From a virus, in IMG/VR virus record IMGVR_UViG_3300021067_000042, positions 1 to 64,000 of that record: a stretch of 64,000 bases of DNA; one strand, 5' to 3'. Below the pieces are notes generated by a model, which was not told the origin of the DNA, made no database searches, and saw only the letters and a program-made list of their open reading frames with translations. Each line of letters begins with the position of its first letter. Positions within the stretch are counted from its first letter, which is position 1. Of the stretch, positions 7,153-55,752 are shown piece after piece. The translations under genes and the position numbers were made by a program.

Positions 7153-7554
7153 AGAGCGCCGCTGCGCGGTCGCAGCATCTTGCTCTCTGGCCCACGCCAT
7201 TAGATTGCCCGCATCCTCTTCAAAGGTGAGAATCCCCTTCGGTGTGAAGGCGAACATCTCGACTAGCCAGCGGCTGAATGAGACGAACTTAATGATTAGC
7301 GCGACATCAAAGGCGAAGGCGATTTTAAGAAGCGTCTTGATGGTCACGCCGTCGTTGGTTTTAGGATTCTCTAGTCTGAAGGCCGTGCTGTAGGCAATCT
7401 GAGCGCGGTCGGCAAATTCATGCCGTGACAGTCCGTGCTGAGTTCTCAATTCTTTAACCTGCGCGGCGATGGATTCTCTGACGGTCTGCGACATGAAGGC
7501 GTCACGGAACTCTTTGTCAGCCCTTAATTTCGTGATGAGTTCTTTTCTGTCCAT
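7147..7554 (-). CDS. XRE-family helix-turn-helix regulator
   Basis: The 135-aa protein has a Cro/CI-type HTH at about residues 32-80: VKELRTQHGLSRHEFADRAQIAYSTAFRLENPKTNDGVTIKTLLKIAFAFDVALIIKF. The N-terminal extension (RKELITKLRADKEFRDAFMSQTV) resembles the helical lead of some antitoxin-like regulators. The C-terminal part is unassigned. It lies inside the long minus operon, not at the switch region, so it may be a local regulator or an orphan antitoxin rather than the main repressor. GAAGGG lies 9 nt before the ATG. Confidence 0.8.
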   Translation of the reverse strand: MDRKELITKLRADKEFRDAFMSQTVRESIAAQVKELRTQHGLSRHEFADRAQIAYSTAFRLENPKTNDGVTIKTLLKIAFAFDVALIIKFVSFSRWLVEMFAFTPKGILTFEEDAGNLMAWAREQDAATAQRRSP

Positions 7555-12442: not shown

Positions 12443-12542
12443 CTCGTATCCTCTTGCTCGCCCACCTTAACGGGCGGGAAGTTCATCGATAAAAATCTTT
12501 CAGCTTACCCGCTTGCTTGATTTCCAAAAACATCATAAGCTG

Positions 12543-12577
12543 GTATGCAGTATACGGTATACCGTATACGGAGTCAA
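12543..12577 (-). promoter_or_regulatory. leftward early promoter with four tandem 7-bp operator repeats
   Basis: On the minus strand TTGACT (12572-12577) and TATACT (12549-12554) are separated by exactly 17 bp. The spacer and -10 are made of unspaced heptads read on the plus strand: GTATGCA, GTATACG, GTATACC, GTATACG (12543-12570). The inner 20 bases GTATACGGTATACCGTATAC form a perfect palindrome. The same heptads cover the rightward promoter near 14824. Binding here would occlude RNA polymerase. Confidence 0.8.
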
Positions 12578-12797
12578 TAGGGTGGGCAAAGATTTTCAGG
12601 AATTTTTCAGGGCGCTAGGAAGTGGACGGAAATTCAGTGGAAAGGCAGGCGGGTTATGTCGGTGTTTCGTTGGATGGCTTACGCTTTAGCTCTAATGCCC
12701 GAAGACGAGTTGCGGCAATTTGAGGAATACTTTGGGACTGGTCAGGGAAGGGGCGTGGGCTTTCACATCAGCAAAGAAATCAGTGGCGAAGGGGATG

Positions 12798-13178
12798 CTA
12801 CTGAATTTCGTCGCCATGAAACTTACCCTCGCGCAAAAGAAGACCAAAAAGTTTCTCCGTCATCTCGGGTACGAATCCGACGCGAATCTTGTAGCCAATC
12901 TGATTCTGAATCGTCAACACAAGTACGTCGTTCGGATAAATCTGAGCCTCAAGATCGGTGACTTGAAGCAGTGGCGGTTCCGGGGATTCCGACGCTTTAA
13001 GTTGGGGCGACAGCCAAAGTATCATCAGTTGGTTGACAAGCTGGCCGATAGCGTTAGCCGGGATTTGCATATCGAACTCAAGGCCGTCGCCGCCCTGGCA
13101 AGTGAGCGTAACCTCTTCACCGTCGTCACTGATTAGTGCTTCTTTAATTCTGGAAAACTCTACATAGCCTTCGCTCAT
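12798..13178 (-). CDS. hypothetical protein of the lysogeny operon
   Basis: The start is placed at 13178 (MSEGYVEFSRIKEAL) because AGAGAGG lies 4 nt upstream; longer in-frame starts lack a signal. The 126-aa product alternates beta strands (EEVTLTCQGGDGLEFDMQIP) and helices. Unrecognised. It ends the minus operon that begins at 14788, and downstream to 12578 lies about 220 bp without a convincing gene. Confidence 0.6.
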   Translation of the reverse strand: MSEGYVEFSRIKEALISDDGEEVTLTCQGGDGLEFDMQIPANAIGQLVNQLMILWLSPQLKASESPEPPLLQVTDLEAQIYPNDVLVLTIQNQIGYKIRVGFVPEMTEKLFGLLLREGKFHGDEIQ

Positions 13179-13203
13179 ATGGCCTCTCTTATATAAATCC
13201 AGC

Positions 13204-13497
13204 CTATCCGCAGTTTCTTGCGGCTCGATAGCCAGCGGCTTCAGCCTCGGCACGAGTTTTGAAATAGACTCTGTTGCTCGGGCCGATGTCGTCATAATTC
13301 GGACATCCGGGCCAGTGATAAATCATGCTCCGGCGGTTGCCTCTGATACGTTCGTCGCGGGGCGTGCTGGTCGGGCCTGTGCCGCTTTGCGAGGCGAGTC
13401 CTGATTTGGCGACATAGGCCGTCGCCTTGTTTGCCGGGGTGTCGTTGTTGGAGCAGGCGAGGGTGAAGAGTAGTAGGAGTGGGAGTAGCTTACGCAT
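13204..13497 (-). CDS. lipoprotein with nuclease-associated Ada-like zinc domain
   Basis: The start at 13497 is preceded by AGGAG at good spacing. A lipoprotein signal (MRKLLPLLLLFTLAC, Cys15 lipidation) leads to a low-complexity linker and then GNRRSMIYHWPGCPNYD...NRVYFKTRAEAEAAGYRAARNC. The latter is the short zinc domain often attached to thermonuclease-like proteins (GNxxSxxYH-x2-GC...F...EA...GYRxxxxC). No nuclease domain is attached. A membrane-anchored protein in a lysogeny operon suggests a superinfection-exclusion or lysogenic-conversion role, which is inference. Confidence 0.75.
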   Translation of the reverse strand: MRKLLPLLLLFTLACSNNDTPANKATAYVAKSGLASQSGTGPTSTPRDERIRGNRRSMIYHWPGCPNYDDIGPSNRVYFKTRAEAEAAGYRAARNCG

Positions 13498-13735
13498 GAG
13501 GGTCTCCTTTGTAGTCCACACTTTCTTGCCCGCGTAGAAATATGCAGAATAAAAAAGTCGCTATCATCGGTATGACAAGTGCGGTAAAGAATCCGGCTAC
13601 GTAGGCGATGCCGTAAGCCACCAACCAGACCCACCAAATCCGCACGCTTTTGGGGTACGTCAGGACCATGACGATGACACAAAGCGGGAAAATTATCAGC
13701 GAAGCGCCGAAGGCACGCATTAAATCATTCAGCAT
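13490..13735 (-). CDS. small integral membrane protein
   Basis: 81 aa with AGGAG before ATG 13735. Two or three hydrophobic helices are visible (LIIFPLCVIVMVLTY, WWVWLVAYGIAYVAGFFTALVI, MIATFLFCIFL). The stop overlaps the lipoprotein start by 8 bp, so the two are probably made together. Candidate exclusion pair at the cell envelope. Confidence 0.7.
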   Translation of the reverse strand: MLNDLMRAFGASLIIFPLCVIVMVLTYPKSVRIWWVWLVAYGIAYVAGFFTALVIPMIATFLFCIFLRGQESVDYKGDPHA

Positions 13736-13907
13736 GTGTGTACTCCTTTAATGCCTGAATTTTACTGCGTCATAAAACCTTACAGCCTAGAAAGGGGTTT
13801 TGCATGTTACGGAAATCTAAACGAAAGAATGGATTAAATTCCAAGACGATTAAATAGAGTTCTCCTGTGAGTGGGTGGGAGGCCAATTTGTCTAAGATCG
13901 GGGAGAC

Positions 13908-14339
13908 CTATACTCTATGAATCACAAAAGTTACCACGCCCCATACCTCAAAGTCCTGGTTGGGCTTGACTACGATTGGCTGATAATTGCTGTTAGCTGG
14001 GACAAGTCGGAGGTGAGACCCGGCAAGCTCAAACTTTTTCACAGTCAGCTCGCCGTCAAGAATCGCAATAACTACCTTTCCGTTTTGAGCTTCAATAGAG
14101 CGATCCACGACAAGTAAATCCCCCGGCTGAATACCCAAGTCAATCATCGAATCCCCCGTCACACGAACAAAGAACGTGTTTGAGGGATGCTTGATAAGGT
14201 ATTCGTAAGGGTCTATCTGGCCTTCGATGTAACTGTCGGTTGCGAACGGATTACCGGCAGACACGGGTAGCGTTACCAGAGCGCAAGTGGGCCACCTTTG
14301 GATACGAGGCGTGTAAACGGCAGACACAAAGGCACTCAC
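13908..14339 (-). CDS. UmuD-like self-cleaving S24 protein
   Basis: 143 aa, the size of UmuD. It shares long stretches with UmuD: PRIQRWP...CALVTLPVSAG, catalytic GDSMID (Ser64), GDLLVVD and DGELTVKKFEL (Lys101). The cleavage pair is Ala28-Gly29; the distances 36 (site to Ser) and 37 (Ser to Lys) equal those in E. coli UmuD. It would cleave itself when RecA* forms. No umuC lies beside it and no HTH is fused to it. It follows the 14336 gene with a 4-bp ATGA overlap. It may confer SOS sensitivity on the prophage switch or act with a host UmuC. Confidence 0.88.
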   Translation of the reverse strand: MSAFVSAVYTPRIQRWPTCALVTLPVSAGNPFATDSYIEGQIDPYEYLIKHPSNTFFVRVTGDSMIDLGIQPGDLLVVDRSIEAQNGKVVIAILDGELTVKKFELAGSHLRLVPANSNYQPIVVKPNQDFEVWGVVTFVIHRV

Positions 14340-14788
14340 TTCTTTTTGCGCTCTCCCTTCTTTGATTTTTCACCCTCGGTTCTCGCGTTGACAACTGGCG
14401 CTGACCGCCCGCTGTTGGTAGGTCTAAATACTGCAAGACCTCCTTTGTTGCCGGGATTGTCTGGGGGAGATTCTTTTCCTCCGTTATCATCGGAACCATA
14501 ATCGCCGTTTGCTAGACCTAAAAAGTATTGACGCTCAGGCTCGGTGACTATGCCTTTTTTCGCTTCCGCCATGCCGACTAGTGCCCTGTTGATGTCGGAT
14601 AAAGAAATCTCTTCAACAGATTCACCTTTTTGCATGGCGGCAATCTGCGCTTTTTTCACCCGCAGTTTCGCGTCATTAACTACCTTGTCCCACCTCTTAA
14701 ACTCTTCGGGGGACAGCTTGAATTGAAATTGGTTTCTTTGGCGATTCCCGTCCGCTGGCATGGCGGATACTGTATACGGAATAGGCAT
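14336..14788 (-). CDS. hypothetical regulator candidate at head of lysogeny operon
   Basis: 150 aa from ATG 14788 with AGGGGTGG ahead. The first half is helical (FKLSPEEFKRWDKVVNDAKLRVKKAQIAAMQ...EEISLSDINRALVGMAEAKKGIV); the second half is Gly/Pro/Lys-rich and probably disordered. Its first codons overlap degenerate GTATAC heptads (14765-14785). Coupled with the UmuD-like gene, it may be the DNA-binding or partner half of a split repressor. No canonical HTH is seen. Confidence 0.6.
   Translation of the reverse strand: MPIPYTVSAMPADGNRQRNQFQFKLSPEEFKRWDKVVNDAKLRVKKAQIAAMQKGESVEEISLSDINRALVGMAEAKKGIVTEPERQYFLGLANGDYGSDDNGGKESPPDNPGNKGGLAVFRPTNSGRSAPVVNARTEGEKSKKGERKKK
14765..14785. promoter_or_regulatory. 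degenerate heptad operator inside the 14788 gene start
   Basis: Three 7-mers in phase, GGATACT, GTATACG and GAATAGG, resemble the GTATACN heptads of the two main operators. The site overlaps codons 2-8 of the minus-strand gene and could act as an autoregulatory or roadblock site. Confidence 0.45.
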
Positions 14789-14814
14789 CTATGTCCACCC
14801 CTAAAATTTTGCCC

Positions 14815-14858
14815 TTGACACGGGTATACGGTATGCTGTATACGGTATACCGTTATGG
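14815..14858 (+). promoter_or_regulatory. rightward promoter with five tandem heptads running into the start codon
   Basis: TTGACA (14815-14820) and TATACG (14839-14844) are 18 bp apart. Unspaced heptads GTATACG, GTATGCT, GTATACG, GTATACC and a degenerate GTTATGG run from 14824 to 14858, ending over the ATG at 14855. The predicted transcription start (about 14851) would leave a leader of only a few bases. Layout and repeat match the promoter at 12549-12577. Confidence 0.75.
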
Positions 14859-15067
14859 CGAGACCACCGAAATATGGCGTCGCAACCAAACCTCTTCCAT
14901 TTCGGCCACGGCCATCCTCGGAAGAGGCTATCAACACACTTGTAAAGAAAACCGGTATCACTAGGGCTGAGATTGCCGATGAAGCGGTGGCGCTCGGGCT
15001 ACCGGATTTATTCAAGAAGCACGGCTTAAAAGTGCCCGCCAAACTTGAGCAGGCAACGACAGGTTGA
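14855..15067 (+). CDS. ribbon-helix-helix-like DNA-binding protein (heptad repressor candidate)
   Basis: 70 aa. After a basic N-terminus (MARPPKYGVATKPLPF) the pattern is a beta strand (LPFRPRPS), helix A (SEEAINTLVKKTG) and helix B (TRAEIADEAVALGLPDLF), the Arc/MetJ/omega RHH order. RHH proteins such as the streptococcal plasmid omega repressor (about 71 aa) bind unspaced 7-bp repeats; the promoter here and at 12549-12577 is built from unspaced 7-bp repeats. So autorepression plus control of the leftward operon is the natural model. The only ATG overlaps the last heptad and no RBS is visible, so translation may be leaderless. No experimental fold assignment. Confidence 0.65.
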   Translation: MARPPKYGVATKPLPFRPRPSSEEAINTLVKKTGITRAEIADEAVALGLPDLFKKHGLKVPAKLEQATTG

Positions 15068-15676: not shown

Positions 15677-15925
15677 ATGAACTACTACGCACAAGCAATC
15701 AGCATCATCACCGACTCTAATACTGACTTCCGCAAACTCGTTCTGGAAATTGCCAAGAGCCACCCCAAAATCATCGTGGACGCTGTTCTTAAACACGGCT
15801 GGCAAGCAGAAGCAAGGCTACTGATTCAGGCCGGCCAAAAGATTGACGCTATCAGGCTATGCCGGAACCTTACCGGCCTCAGCTTGAAAGAAGCGAAAGA
15901 CGCTGTTGAGGCTCTTGTCGCCTGA
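15677..15925 (+). CDS. small protein with ribosomal L7/L12 C-terminal-like motif
   Basis: 82 aa from ATG 15677 behind AAAGGAAGCC. The C-terminal 35 residues (GQKIDAIRLCRNLTGLSLKEAKDAVEALVA) match the L7/L12 C-terminal fold signature (K-x-x-I-x-x-x-R-x-x-T-G-L-x-L-K-E-A-K-x-x-V-E). In L7/L12 this domain binds translation GTPases. In phage and host hypothetical proteins it occurs as a stand-alone module of unknown role. The N-terminal part is helical. A strong terminator follows at 15969. Confidence 0.75.
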   Translation: MNYYAQAISIITDSNTDFRKLVLEIAKSHPKIIVDAVLKHGWQAEARLLIQAGQKIDAIRLCRNLTGLSLKEAKDAVEALVA

Positions 15926-42309: not shown

Positions 42310-42954
42310 ATGGCTCAAAGGAAGTCAACAAAGAAGGGGGCGGGAGATGGTAAGCCAAATAGGAGACCAACAAAGAGGCAACTCCTAACGGCTGAGGGTG
42401 TAGCACAAGGCAAGAGTTTGCATAGGGCCGCTTTAGATGCCGGCTACTCGCCGCATACGGCGAAATCCATGATTTATAAAACGCAAGAAAACGCAAGAAT
42501 TTTGGAGGCCGTAGAAAACCGGAAGGCCGAGGCCATGCGGAGGGCGCAAATTCATACGGATATTATAGTTGGCTCTCTCGCTGAGATAGCTACGGCCTCA
42601 CTTGCCGACGTGGTTCCCGACGATCCGTTCTTGCGAAATGCGAAGAAAAGTGGAACGGACCATTTAATTAAGAAAGTCAAGGTCAATTACGACACCAAAG
42701 GGAATATAAAGTCTCGGGAATACGAGATGTATTCCCGCCTTGAAGCCTTGAACCAGCTTAGGGACACGTTCGGGATGAAGCAGGAGCCTAGAGCCAACAC
42801 CTTTGACGAAACCCGCAGGGCAGAAGTTGAGCGTTCAATTCACAGAATCATGGAGCGTGACGGAGTAGACCAGCCCACGGCGGCAAAGACCTTGCTTGCG
42901 GAGTTGGGCGACGTGCCGGAACTCGCCCCGATAGTCAGTAGTTATGCCAACTAG
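42310..42954 (+). CDS. terminase small subunit
   Basis: 214 aa. The N-terminal part (PTKRQLLTAEGVAQGKSLHRAALDAGYSPHTAKSMIYKTQENARILEAVE) is an HTH of the terminase small-subunit (terminase_2-like) family. The middle (HTDIIVGSLAEIATASLADVV) and the basic strand ending KVNYDTKGNIKSREYEM follow the usual plan. It recognises the packaging site and feeds DNA to the large subunit, which overlaps it by 11 bp. Confidence 0.85.
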   Translation: MAQRKSTKKGAGDGKPNRRPTKRQLLTAEGVAQGKSLHRAALDAGYSPHTAKSMIYKTQENARILEAVENRKAEAMRRAQIHTDIIVGSLAEIATASLADVVPDDPFLRNAKKSGTDHLIKKVKVNYDTKGNIKSREYEMYSRLEALNQLRDTFGMKQEPRANTFDETRRAEVERSIHRIMERDGVDQPTAAKTLLAELGDVPELAPIVSSYAN

Positions 42955-45025
42955 TGTGACAATAGCAGAGGCCACACGTTTGCGGGCTTTGTTCCCTGGC
43001 CGAGCGGCGATGTTCCCGAAAACGGAGCAGGCCGCTGAGTTGGAGTGCAAGGGCTATCTGGCTTGGCTTCAGACTCTCGGCAGGCGGACGTTTAGTAAGC
43101 CCTTCGCCTCTTTCCATTTTGAATTTTGGGATTGGTACTGGCCTGTACGCTTCAAACTCCTTCGCGGCGAGGTACTGACCCCCGAAGAAATGACGATGCT
43201 CCTCATTTGGGGGCGCGGGATGGGTAAAAGCTCGCACGTTGAGTGGGCCTGTATTGCTGAAGGTGCTTTGGGTGAAGGTGTGACGGATGAGCCGGGATTC
43301 GTCGGTTACGTCTGCGACACTGAGGCATTGGCTAAGGGGCATATTCAGTCAATCAGGAATCGCCTGGATTCTCCACAGGTGGCTTACTACTACCCCGGAC
43401 TCTCTAACCCTCGTGTGGATAAGCACGGCTATCAGACCGCGTGGAGGCAGGACTTTCTAGCAACATCTTCACACTGGGGCATCATCCCGATTGGCCTAGA
43501 AGAAGGCGTGCGCGGCGGGCGTTTGTTCGATCTGCGCTTTACCATGTTCGTCTTTGACGACATTGACAGCCGCAAAGATTCTCCGGCCGCCGTAGAGAAG
43601 AAGATGAAGATTATCTCCCACGAGATTCTACCCGCCGGCACGCCGGACACTCTTAAATTAGTGCCACAGAATCTTATTCACGAGAATGGGTTTGTCACTC
43701 AGGTTTACACTCGCAGAAGTGACATCCTGTCCGAGCGTCAGGAGTCAGGGCCGTACCCCGCCTTCGACGATTTAGAACTGGAGTTGGATTCATCCAGTGC
43801 GGGCAGGAAGTGGAAGATTAAAAGTGCCAGACCTACGTGGCCGAGCATTGACTTGAGGGCTGCGAGTGTGTTCCTAGCCGACTCCGGCAAGGTCGCCTTC
43901 TTAGCAGAGTACCAGCACGACCTTGAGAGCAACAAAGAAGGAAGAGTATTAAGAAACTACAATGACAAGCTGATGGTGATTCGTCGCTCTGATTTCCAGA
44001 GGGTCTACGGTCAAAGATTCATCCCTAAGAACTGGCCTAAGAGAGTGTTCCATGATTGGTCACGTACTAAATCAGCATACCACGCTAACATCGCGGGGAA
44101 ACTGACGGTCTCCAATCAGAACACCAAGCTCCCCGGCAAGCTGTTCCTGTTCGACTTGATGTCATTTGAGGAGCAGACGCAGGCCGATGATGTTGGTAAA
44201 AGGTTATTAGAGAGTATCACGCCCTTTGTCCCTGGCACGAATCAGACCTGGGCGCAGCTTATTGATTCTTCTACCTCCCGTGCTGGGTTGGAAATCTACC
44301 TATCCGACCTAACCAGATTGATCGAAGCCCGAAGGAACGTCTTAGCGGGTGTCATCCCTCCCCTCGTGGTTCCCTTGCTTCAGGAGAACGGCTACACATC
44401 ATTCGTGGGCTCCCACGACCAGAACAACGACGCTTTGACTGTTTACCGTAAAGTCTTCGGCCTGCCATTCGCCCCAGTGAATCCCGGCGAAAGTGGTGGG
44501 CTCGAATGGATAGACCACTTCATGCTGGTAGATAAGAAGACCCGACACCCGTTCTTTGAGGATGAGCAACTTGAAGACGGTACGTGGAAACTAGGTTGTC
44601 CGGGCATGTTCATACTGCTTGAGGATGAGAAATACCCTTATCCGCAAGTCTCTACACCGGATGCTTTGCACGATTCTGATTTGTGCAGGTATCAGTTCAA
44701 CAACTGGAGAATGCGGCCCGCCAAACTTACAGAAGGCGGGTTAGTCGAGCATGGCCCGATGAAGATGAATGACGACTTCGGGCAGGGCTTACAGATGGCA
44801 ATGGTAAATGGCCCGCCTGCACCTTTGCCTTTGACGTTTGGTGAGAAGGTAGTTGAGGCCACGCCACCGAGCAAGCGATTCGAGGCTTTACAGGAGCAGT
44901 CCAATATTCCGGGCGGGGGGCTGACGCCTGAAGCTGAGATGACTTTCATTTATAACCGGAAACAGGCAGAGAAGAAAATCAGACCTCGCATTGTTGAGAC
45001 TAACGAGTGGGGAGAGGAAATATGA
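42944..45025 (+). CDS. terminase large subunit (packaging ATPase/nuclease)
   Basis: 693 aa. Walker A GRGMGKSS (residues 90-97), Walker B MFVFDDID (201-208) with the catalytic acid, and GLEEGVRGGRLFD ahead of it. The nuclease half starts with RVFHDWSRTKSAYH (Asp371) and continues LIDSSTSRAGLE. The length is large for the family. It powers DNA translocation into the prohead and makes the cut. It lies before a run of small genes and then portal, unlike the usual direct neighbour order. Confidence 0.93.
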   Translation: MPTSVTIAEATRLRALFPGRAAMFPKTEQAAELECKGYLAWLQTLGRRTFSKPFASFHFEFWDWYWPVRFKLLRGEVLTPEEMTMLLIWGRGMGKSSHVEWACIAEGALGEGVTDEPGFVGYVCDTEALAKGHIQSIRNRLDSPQVAYYYPGLSNPRVDKHGYQTAWRQDFLATSSHWGIIPIGLEEGVRGGRLFDLRFTMFVFDDIDSRKDSPAAVEKKMKIISHEILPAGTPDTLKLVPQNLIHENGFVTQVYTRRSDILSERQESGPYPAFDDLELELDSSSAGRKWKIKSARPTWPSIDLRAASVFLADSGKVAFLAEYQHDLESNKEGRVLRNYNDKLMVIRRSDFQRVYGQRFIPKNWPKRVFHDWSRTKSAYHANIAGKLTVSNQNTKLPGKLFLFDLMSFEEQTQADDVGKRLLESITPFVPGTNQTWAQLIDSSTSRAGLEIYLSDLTRLIEARRNVLAGVIPPLVVPLLQENGYTSFVGSHDQNNDALTVYRKVFGLPFAPVNPGESGGLEWIDHFMLVDKKTRHPFFEDEQLEDGTWKLGCPGMFILLEDEKYPYPQVSTPDALHDSDLCRYQFNNWRMRPAKLTEGGLVEHGPMKMNDDFGQGLQMAMVNGPPAPLPLTFGEKVVEATPPSKRFEALQEQSNIPGGGLTPEAEMTFIYNRKQAEKKIRPRIVETNEWGEEI

Positions 45026-54477: not shown

Positions 54478-55752
54478 ATGGCAGTCGCACAGGCTGAGAA
54501 TTTTACCGACTGGGTGACTCAGAAGACGCGGAGTCTGACGAGTGACAAGAAACTCTTCGAGATGAAGAGTCCCGGTTACAACGCAATCAAAAAGGCGACG
54601 AGGACAGAGCCCATCACGCAGAAGGGCTATCGCCTGCCCCACTGGTATCAGATGCCCGGCGGCGTCGGAGGCTTTGTCCCCACGGACTCGTCCTTTAACC
54701 CTTACGTTCCCCCGTCCAGCCGTTCGATGTACGTGTTTCCCACGTACATGGCGCAGCCCATTGTTATGGACGGTGCGGCCATTCGCATGTTGAAGAGTGG
54801 TAGTGAGCAGAACATTACGAACCTGGACCAGGCGATAAACCTGCACTACGACGTGTTCACCAAGCGAATCAATCACATGATTTACGGTGATGGCTCGGGG
54901 ACGTTGGCGGTAGCGGGCGGGGCGGTTTCGACTCTGGGTACGGGCCAAACTTTGACGGGCACTACCGCGGCGGCCACGACTCCAGGTCAGACCAAAGGCA
55001 CTGTCCGGTTGATGAAAAGTCACTACTACGACGCCATCAACCCCTCGACGGGTGCTGTCCGTGGCACGTTCTACGTGGAAACCCCTGGTGCGAGTTCCTG
55101 CACGATCTATCTCCTGTCTGGAACCATCAGTTCGGGCGACTACATCACGGACCCGAACTCCTACAACCGGATGCCCCGCGGATTGGGCCATCTGATTTCC
55201 AACGCCTCACGCATCCTGCAAACGCTCAACACGGCGAACGACACCAACCTCAACAGTCCGGGCGTGGACTTGAACGGCACGCTGGCGACCCCCGTGACGT
55301 TCGACCGGGCGAAGGTGGCCTTGCAGACCAGGGCCAACGAGCAGGGCGCGGAGAACGGCCTGCTGTGCTTCTGCACGTTCAACTTCTACGCCCTTCTCAA
55401 GCGGCAGGGCTGGAATTTGACGACGCAGGGTACGGACACGACCACGGGCATTGCCAGAAGGTATCAAGACGGCGACACCACGTTCATTCTCGACGCCGAC
55501 ATGGACGAGGACCGTGCCTACCTTGTGGCTAAGGACGCTCTGGTGATGTTCGAGGAGATGGAGATGGGAGACTTCAGGCTCGACGGGCAGGAGTGGAGGA
55601 TGCTTCTGGGCAATCACGGCACGGGCTCGGACTCGTGGCAGCGGGCCTTCGGCATCGCCTACAACATGGGCCTGGTGGACCCGAAGAGTTCGGCGTTCAT
55701 TAAGCGCGCGTTGATTTCTTCGAGCGACACGCAAGTGTCGGTGAACAGCTAA
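54478..55752 (+). CDS. major capsid protein
   Basis: 424 aa from ATG 54478 (AAGGAGATAAGTA ahead). HK97-like features: N-arm helix (TDWVTQKTRSLTSDKKLFEM), E-loop region (KKATRTEPITQKGYRLPHWYQM), beta P-domain (SRSMYVFPTYMAQPIVMDGAAIRM), helix in LDQAINLHYDVFTKRINHMIYG, Gly/Thr-rich A-domain and a closing MLLGNHGTGSDSWQRAFG. A Ser/Thr-rich inserted segment at residues 140-175 may be a surface loop. Its place between scaffold and head-completion genes supports this. Confidence 0.85.
   Translation: MAVAQAENFTDWVTQKTRSLTSDKKLFEMKSPGYNAIKKATRTEPITQKGYRLPHWYQMPGGVGGFVPTDSSFNPYVPPSSRSMYVFPTYMAQPIVMDGAAIRMLKSGSEQNITNLDQAINLHYDVFTKRINHMIYGDGSGTLAVAGGAVSTLGTGQTLTGTTAAATTPGQTKGTVRLMKSHYYDAINPSTGAVRGTFYVETPGASSCTIYLLSGTISSGDYITDPNSYNRMPRGLGHLISNASRILQTLNTANDTNLNSPGVDLNGTLATPVTFDRAKVALQTRANEQGAENGLLCFCTFNFYALLKRQGWNLTTQGTDTTTGIARRYQDGDTTFILDADMDEDRAYLVAKDALVMFEEMEMGDFRLDGQEWRMLLGNHGTGSDSWQRAFGIAYNMGLVDPKSSAFIKRALISSSDTQVSVNS

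Follow-up and report, generated by a model that had tools for sequence, protein, structure and literature searches.

Tandem GTATACN heptads as the probable common operator of a lambda-like phage immunity region

To our knowledge, helix-turn-helix (HTH) proteins that act on spaced dyads underlie nearly all of the lysogeny switches characterised to date that have an S24 repressor. Arc and Mnt of phage P22 and the cellular protein MetJ are ribbon-helix-helix (RHH) repressors, and MetJ binds tandem palindromic boxes with one dimer per box. The omega heptads, WATCACW, are not palindromes and are found in either orientation (PMC9499535). Further, UmuDAb-DdrR of Acinetobacter pairs a UmuD-like S24 repressor that responds to DNA damage with a small protein encoded divergently to it (PMC11332147). 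Here, we analyzed two opposed promoters covered by tandem GTATACN heptads in IMG/VR virus record IMGVR_UViG_3300021067_000042, which comprises 73,216 bases; positions 1 to 64,000 of the record are referred to as the window. The original prediction for this DNA proposed that one RHH protein sets both transcription units through omega-like heptads, as a lysogeny switch not built on CI/Cro-type dyads.

The region is probably the immunity (lysis-lysogeny) region of a temperate phage, in which the GTATACN heptads serve as the common operator of PL-, PRM- and PR-like promoters (Table 1). We favor a lambda-like switch because the heptads occur only at three promoter sites, beyond all shuffles, and because the operons are laid out as in lambda, with a tyrosine integrase gene in the same record. 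The rightward early operon starts at 14855 and comprises a candidate regulator gene (hereafter 14855), an MT-A70 methylase gene, an HNH gene and a helicase gene, and the leftward operon from the promoter at 12543 carries Dam- and cytosine-methylase genes. Between these early operons, a repressor-position gene, a gene for a UmuD-like S24 peptidase, and small membrane-protein, lipoprotein and other genes are read leftward from 14761. Thus, as in lambda, a gene in the repressor position lies between opposed early promoters, with array sites at PL, PRM and PR.

Each of the two strong sites scored 23 of 24 matches to four GTATAC units, as compared with a best score of 17 of 24 for four units in 60 dinucleotide-preserving shuffles of the window. 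The two-unit pattern matched the window eight times and the shuffles 0.40 +/- 0.60 times. When heptads were counted throughout the 73-kb record, as the original prediction had proposed, exact pairs were found at the two strong sites only, and pairs with one mismatch at these sites and the weak triplet only. The strong sites share 23 of 24 nucleotides in the GGTATGCWGTATACGGTATACCGT region, including a 12-bp palindromic core, and their flanks do not match. The predicted leftward heptads, the weak triplet and the perfect 20-bp palindrome at 12550-12569 were all recovered. Five heptads had been predicted at 14824-14858; the first four are good units, and the fifth (GTTATGG, 14852-14858), which contains the start codon, is degenerate and matches GTATAC at two of six positions.

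Searches with the 14855 protein alone (viral_contigs, genome_contigs, phages, plasmids and 396 Acidobacteriota genomes) revealed no convincing relative. A related phage, L168 (contig 3300044827_000006, handle G399, 51 kb), was reached only when IMG/VR was scanned at the DNA level, in relaxed form, for runs of four GTATRC units. Within the 51 kb of L168, heptad pairs with at most one mismatch were confined to exactly the three positions known from the window phage, namely at a PR-like promoter, in a weak set just before the repressor gene (G399 42870-42882), and in register at a PL-like promoter (~7395-7422). The distance between the strong sites was ~2.29 kb in L168 and ~2.28 kb in the window phage. 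The PR block was identical at 41 of 46 positions (random 46-mers of the window reached at most 28), as compared with 40% identity at the third codon positions of the gene next to it, suggesting that the heptads act as operators in a lysogeny switch that has been conserved. The PL block was identical at 27 of 35 positions (random 35-mers, at most 23), and both phages share the register TTGAC followed by GTATACG GYATACS GTATACW GYATACC. A microsatellite origin of the heptads was rejected, because their seventh letters differ, they occur at three places only and their register is conserved in L168.

The L168 homologue of 14855 (66 amino acids) was 53% identical over 55 amino acids (E 3e-22), and no other protein of the module is as well conserved. 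Divergent to this homologue, the repressor-position gene of L168 encodes a fusion protein of 220 amino acids, which consists of an N-domain and an S24 domain (Pfam E 1.9e-12) that matches LexA structures. The N-domains of this protein and of the repressor-position protein in the window were 26% identical over 74 columns (E 4e-4) and share TExxRxYFLG. Proteome-wide, the two phages had few other matches, all of which were weak. The absence of heptads from relatives, which the original prediction had named as counter-evidence, was not observed; the distant L168 retains them together with a 14855-type gene. Further, phage G001, whose terminase is 59% identical, lacks the heptads, 14855 and S24 together, as expected for an exchangeable module. 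The heptads, 14855 and S24 therefore appear to move together, as judged from one positive and one negative relative. A further candidate relative, L184, was rejected as a chance coding match in which the module is not present.

All three heptad sites overlap promoters, and the TATAC of a heptad can double as the -10 box in each. Both promoters of the original prediction were located, the leftward one by a consensus scan and the rightward one by eye, and the TTGACA and spacing of the latter are conserved in L168. Promoter-like matches alone were no commoner than in shuffles (3 found, 3.2 expected); support for the promoters comes from their conservation in L168. The start codons lie ~9-12 nt behind the -10 boxes in this phage, so that near-leaderless transcripts are likely.

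The adjacent repressor-position and S24 genes had been overlooked in the original prediction. The S24 protein scored 140.8 bits against NF007621 (cutoff 110), and VSAG (an Ala-Gly cleavage site) and GDSM and TVKK (a Ser/Lys dyad) can be read in its translation. Its start codon overlaps the stop codon of the repressor-position gene by 4 bp, and the two genes are separate in this phage. The junction CGC AAA AAG AAG TGA (14336-14355, minus strand; CGCAAAAAGAAGTGAGTG) looks slippery, and a -1 frameshift there could join the two products. By eye, the repressor-position N-domain resembles a strand-helix-helix (VINLSYRL..DDEARRWEEM..NRTDVTRALL). The repressor-position product and the S24 protein most likely form a CI-like, SOS-sensitive regulator, and the product of 14855 is most likely a Cro-like one. 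Thus, two proteins rather than one probably set the switch. The heptads appear to form one operator set over opposed promoters, as predicted, and the single-protein part of that claim is made less likely by the adjacent repressor-position and S24 genes. Similarly, the operators are unlike those of CI/Cro, as proposed, but the gene layout is CI/Cro-like.

The product of 14855 is a plausible candidate for the RHH fold. A single-sequence AlphaFold 2 model (predicted local distance difference test, pLDDT, 72) has an extended N-terminus to residue 21 and helices at 22-33 and 37-47; the model is strand-helix-helix-like, yet no strand was assigned in the monomer. The conserved residues read FRPRP...E-AIN--V--TG-TR-E-ADE. 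A home-made RHH profile failed to separate RHH proteins from noise. The predicted RHH identity draws on this model and on a sub-threshold RHH_3 match, and the structure and profile comparisons gave nothing decisive.

Several results weigh against our preferred reading of the region. The match of 14855 to PF12651 RHH_3 (E 0.015, 15.7 bits) is below the cutoff of 21.6, and its L168 homologue has no RHH match in Pfam. Profile comparison of 14855 using hhalign did not stand out from column shuffles, as the same score was reached in 9 of 60. Foldseek and VIA-align listed no RHH structure among their matches to two single-sequence models, which are too weak (pLDDT 72 and 58) for this result to exclude an RHH fold. 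The repressor-position N-domain matched no family and no HTH family, and its similarity to that of L168 is modest (E 4e-4). Further, the S24 protein is nearest to UmuD, not to CI/LexA, and may be an SOS accessory outside the repressor. The module was found in a single relative, and an integrase of the two main families was not detected in G399, which is possibly an incomplete record.

In the strongest alternative, the 14855 protein alone binds all heptads as an omega-like RHH regulator, and the S24 protein has no part in the switch but is an accessory of the SOS response, for instance an orphan UmuD. The position of 14855 directly behind the strong PR array, its conservation within the module, its weak RHH_3 match and the affinity of the S24 protein to UmuD are consistent with this arrangement. 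However, the fusion of N-domain and S24 in the place of CI in L168 must have its own operator, and apart from the heptads no repeated site was seen. Moreover, an autoregulated protein encoded behind PR could not easily hold PR shut in a lysogen. We therefore consider control by 14855 alone unlikely.

The heptads might also be read by a winged-helix regulator of the GntR/FadR-FCD type, of phage or host origin, through which the phage borrows a metabolic signal of its host. A genome scan gave at least 119 array-bearing stretches, and of 140 array loci inspected in viral and cellular DNA, 14 had a GntR/FCD gene within 300 bp; two of these genes were verified in Pfam. In cellular genomes, arrays often adjoin GntR/FCD genes, and such loci occur in several unrelated phyla (L050, L062, L068, L079, L081, L085, L097, L120, L134, L136, L156, L047, L096 and L080). 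Published operators also fit GTATAC, namely the FadR-family consensus N(y)GTM-N0-1-KACN(y) (PMC4494728), the Atu1419 operator ATGTATACAT (PMC7797058) and (GGTATA)3, which is bound by three NanR dimers (PMC8012715). GTATACN arrays are therefore not specific to RHH proteins, and the association with GntR is a caution against taking any such array for an RHH site; the motif alone does not point to RHH. However, when the 73-kb record was searched with a profile of 24 array-linked GntR proteins, nothing GntR-like was detected, the best E being 1.3. Four-unit GYATRC arrays were absent from 395 of the 396 sampled Acidobacteriota genomes, the exception having been selected for its arrays, and in L168 the arrays travel with the two phage genes. 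A GntR-type reader is thus quite improbable. Least probable of all is an HTH-like or novel-fold repressor that reads one dyad, either the perfect palindrome of the PL-like site or the 12-bp ACGGTATACCGT core of both strong sites, with the 7-bp periodicity as a by-product, because at PR the palindrome is broken on one side and the heptads extend on the other, and because the PL array of L168 (GTATACG GCATACG GTATACA GTATACC) keeps the heptad register and breaks the 20-bp dyad, which argues for heptads.

The arrays found in these scans differ in context. Among the cellular loci, those of Desulfobacula precede CoA-transferase and indolepyruvate-oxidoreductase-like genes, with a GntR gene ~1.2 kb or more away. 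In two other phage loci (L018:3063-3106 / L022 and L025:10980-11256), 5 and 7 GTATACN units lie beside small proteins; those of L018/L025 are RHH-like by eye (MPKITVYIRNDDYIKW...; ...YDRLNIFIPKGQRDVIQAHAADKG...) and have no Pfam match. Paired GTATACN arrays ~350 bp apart occur among repeated GAACRTATGTTCG-like elements in L023, L024 and L166 (viral contigs 3300021255_001123 and 3300021400_001610). The 7-17 related heptads of L019, L040, L070 and L133, which include GTCTACC and GAACACT, resemble tandem-repeat expansions rather than operators.

Returning to the lambda-like switch, we observed the three sites and where they lie in this phage, as well as their recurrence beside the two flanking regulator genes in the largely unrelated L168, and we infer that the 14855 product and the repressor-position product, with the S24 protein, compete for or share the heptads. 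Binding would be cooperative, with one dimer per unit, and a protein that fills an array would directly cover the RNA polymerase site, as the TATAC of a unit can also serve as the -10 box. In a lysogen, the repressor-position protein and its S24 partner would occupy the PL and PR arrays and tune their own weak array; with this weaker array at PRM, the repressor could sustain its own synthesis even when PL and PR are closed. Upon DNA damage, self-cleavage of S24 stimulated by RecA would release both early operons. After induction, the same arrays would be taken by the 14855 protein, which in the Cro position would be autoregulated and is probably an RHH protein. The separate S24 protein of this phage may act as a dimerising or co-repressor subunit in place of a fused domain, and this split form would need a protein-protein contact or a frameshifted fusion. 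More tentatively, the two phages may represent a new class of SOS-inducible switch in which Cro-like and CI-like proteins are both RHH proteins that polymerise on palindromic -10-box heptads, the CI-like one being either a fused RHH-S24 protein or split, with a recruited UmuD-like part that is cleavable and dimerising; we regard this extension as possible but doubtful. A lambda-like circuit on contiguous palindromic heptads, shared by phages with little else in common, would mean that the logic of the circuit is retained when operator type and DNA-binding domain are both exchanged. The split and fused forms also offer a direct route to ask how a cleavable S24 module joins or leaves a DNA-binding domain.

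Table 1. Features of the candidate immunity region and of the remaining record (window positions)
Feature	Position	Strand	Remarks
Tyrosine integrase	2526-3749		gene in same record
First sizeable gene of leftward early operon, 85 aa	12185..12442	-	no family match
Possible 17-codon leader open reading frame, MMFLEIKQAGKLKDFYR	12483..12536	-	directly behind leftward promoter, ahead of 12185-12442 gene; read from sequence
PL-like operator, four tandem heptads GTATGCA GTATACG GTATACC GTATACG	12543..12570	.	5, 6, 6, 6 of 6 matches to GTATAC
Leftward promoter TTGACT-17-TATACT	12549..12577	-	consensus scan; -10 and spacer inside heptads
165-aa gene, repressor-side operon	12798..13295	-	no family assigned
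105-aa lipoprotein-like gene, sunset domain	13204..13521	-	NF051437, E 1.9e-13
81-aa membrane-protein-like gene	13490..13735	-	
UmuD-like S24 peptidase, 143 aa	13908..14339	-	GTG start; PF00717 E 8e-31; phrog_811 E 2.4e-40; NF007621 E 1.8e-41
Repressor-position gene, 141 aa from ATG 14761	14336..14761	-	N-terminal 82 residues resemble N-domain of fused L168 repressor
Weak heptad triplet GGATACT GTATACG GAATAGG, PRM-like	14765..14785	.	5, 6, 4 of 6 matches
PRM-like leftward promoter, TGGACA-15-TATACA or TGGACA-17-TACAGT	under weak triplet 14765-14785	-	
Rightward promoter TTGACA-18-TATACG	14815..14844	+	seen by eye; final T required by scan absent
PR-like operator, four tandem heptads GTATACG GTATGCT GTATACG GTATACC	14824..14851	.	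6, 5, 6, 6 of 6 matches
Cro-position protein, 70 aa, candidate RHH	14855..15067	+	first gene of rightward operon
Terminase	42944-45025		
Weakly capsid-like gene	near 54478		

Of the 396 sampled Acidobacteriota genomes, 42 contain relatives of a putative host gene at 646-2262, which is no more than suggestive as to the host, and no tRNA genes were found within the window. By its position in the repressor-side operon, the lipoprotein-like gene with the sunset domain is a candidate superinfection-exclusion gene. The repressor-side operon of L168 includes a gene for a proteasome-subunit-like protein (L168:6428-7315; Pfam E 7e-5), which is preceded by a PAS-like gene. In the rightward operon of the window phage, 15677-15925 encodes an 82-amino-acid protein with a ribosomal L7/L12 C-terminal domain (Pfam E 4.5e-7).

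Compared with omega of pSM19035, an RHH ParB protein, the locus has contiguous 7-bp units over promoters, several per site, but each unit here is the palindrome GTATAC. The predicted omega-like unit was thus not borne out; the term fits the spacing alone, and no homology to omega was detected in the phage protein. Because GTATAC is palindromic and the omega unit is not, the operator geometry resembles tandem palindromic boxes, such as those of MetJ, although the boxes of MetJ are 8 bp long and sequence homology to Arc, Mnt or MetJ was not seen. The GTATAC core and the tandem arrays are shared with GntR/FadR-FCD regulators, including NanR on (GGTATA)3, from which cooperative dimers are known; in contrast, this phage has no GntR protein, and the small phage proteins found alongside the sites are unrelated to GntR. 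That a UmuD-like repressor can work with a small partner has a precedent in UmuDAb-DdrR, but UmuDAb has its own HTH-like N-terminus, whereas the candidate DNA-binding domain is encoded here by a gene of its own, upstream of the S24 gene. Finally, the region shares with lambda immunity the repressor-position gene between opposed early promoters, the small divergent gene in the Cro position, the operators common to PL, PRM and PR, and an S24 (LexA/CI-type) peptidase with VSAG and the Ser/Lys residues. It differs in that lambda has spaced 17-bp dyads and this phage unspaced palindromic heptads, that the N-domain matches no HTH family, and that the repressor N-domain and S24, fused in the lambda type and in L168, are separate here, with S24 as a UmuD-like protein. 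From its sequence, the locus thus looks like a genuine operator system, conserved between phages, of a switch of the lambda kind, which is unusual in its tandem-heptad operator and has regulator proteins not described before.

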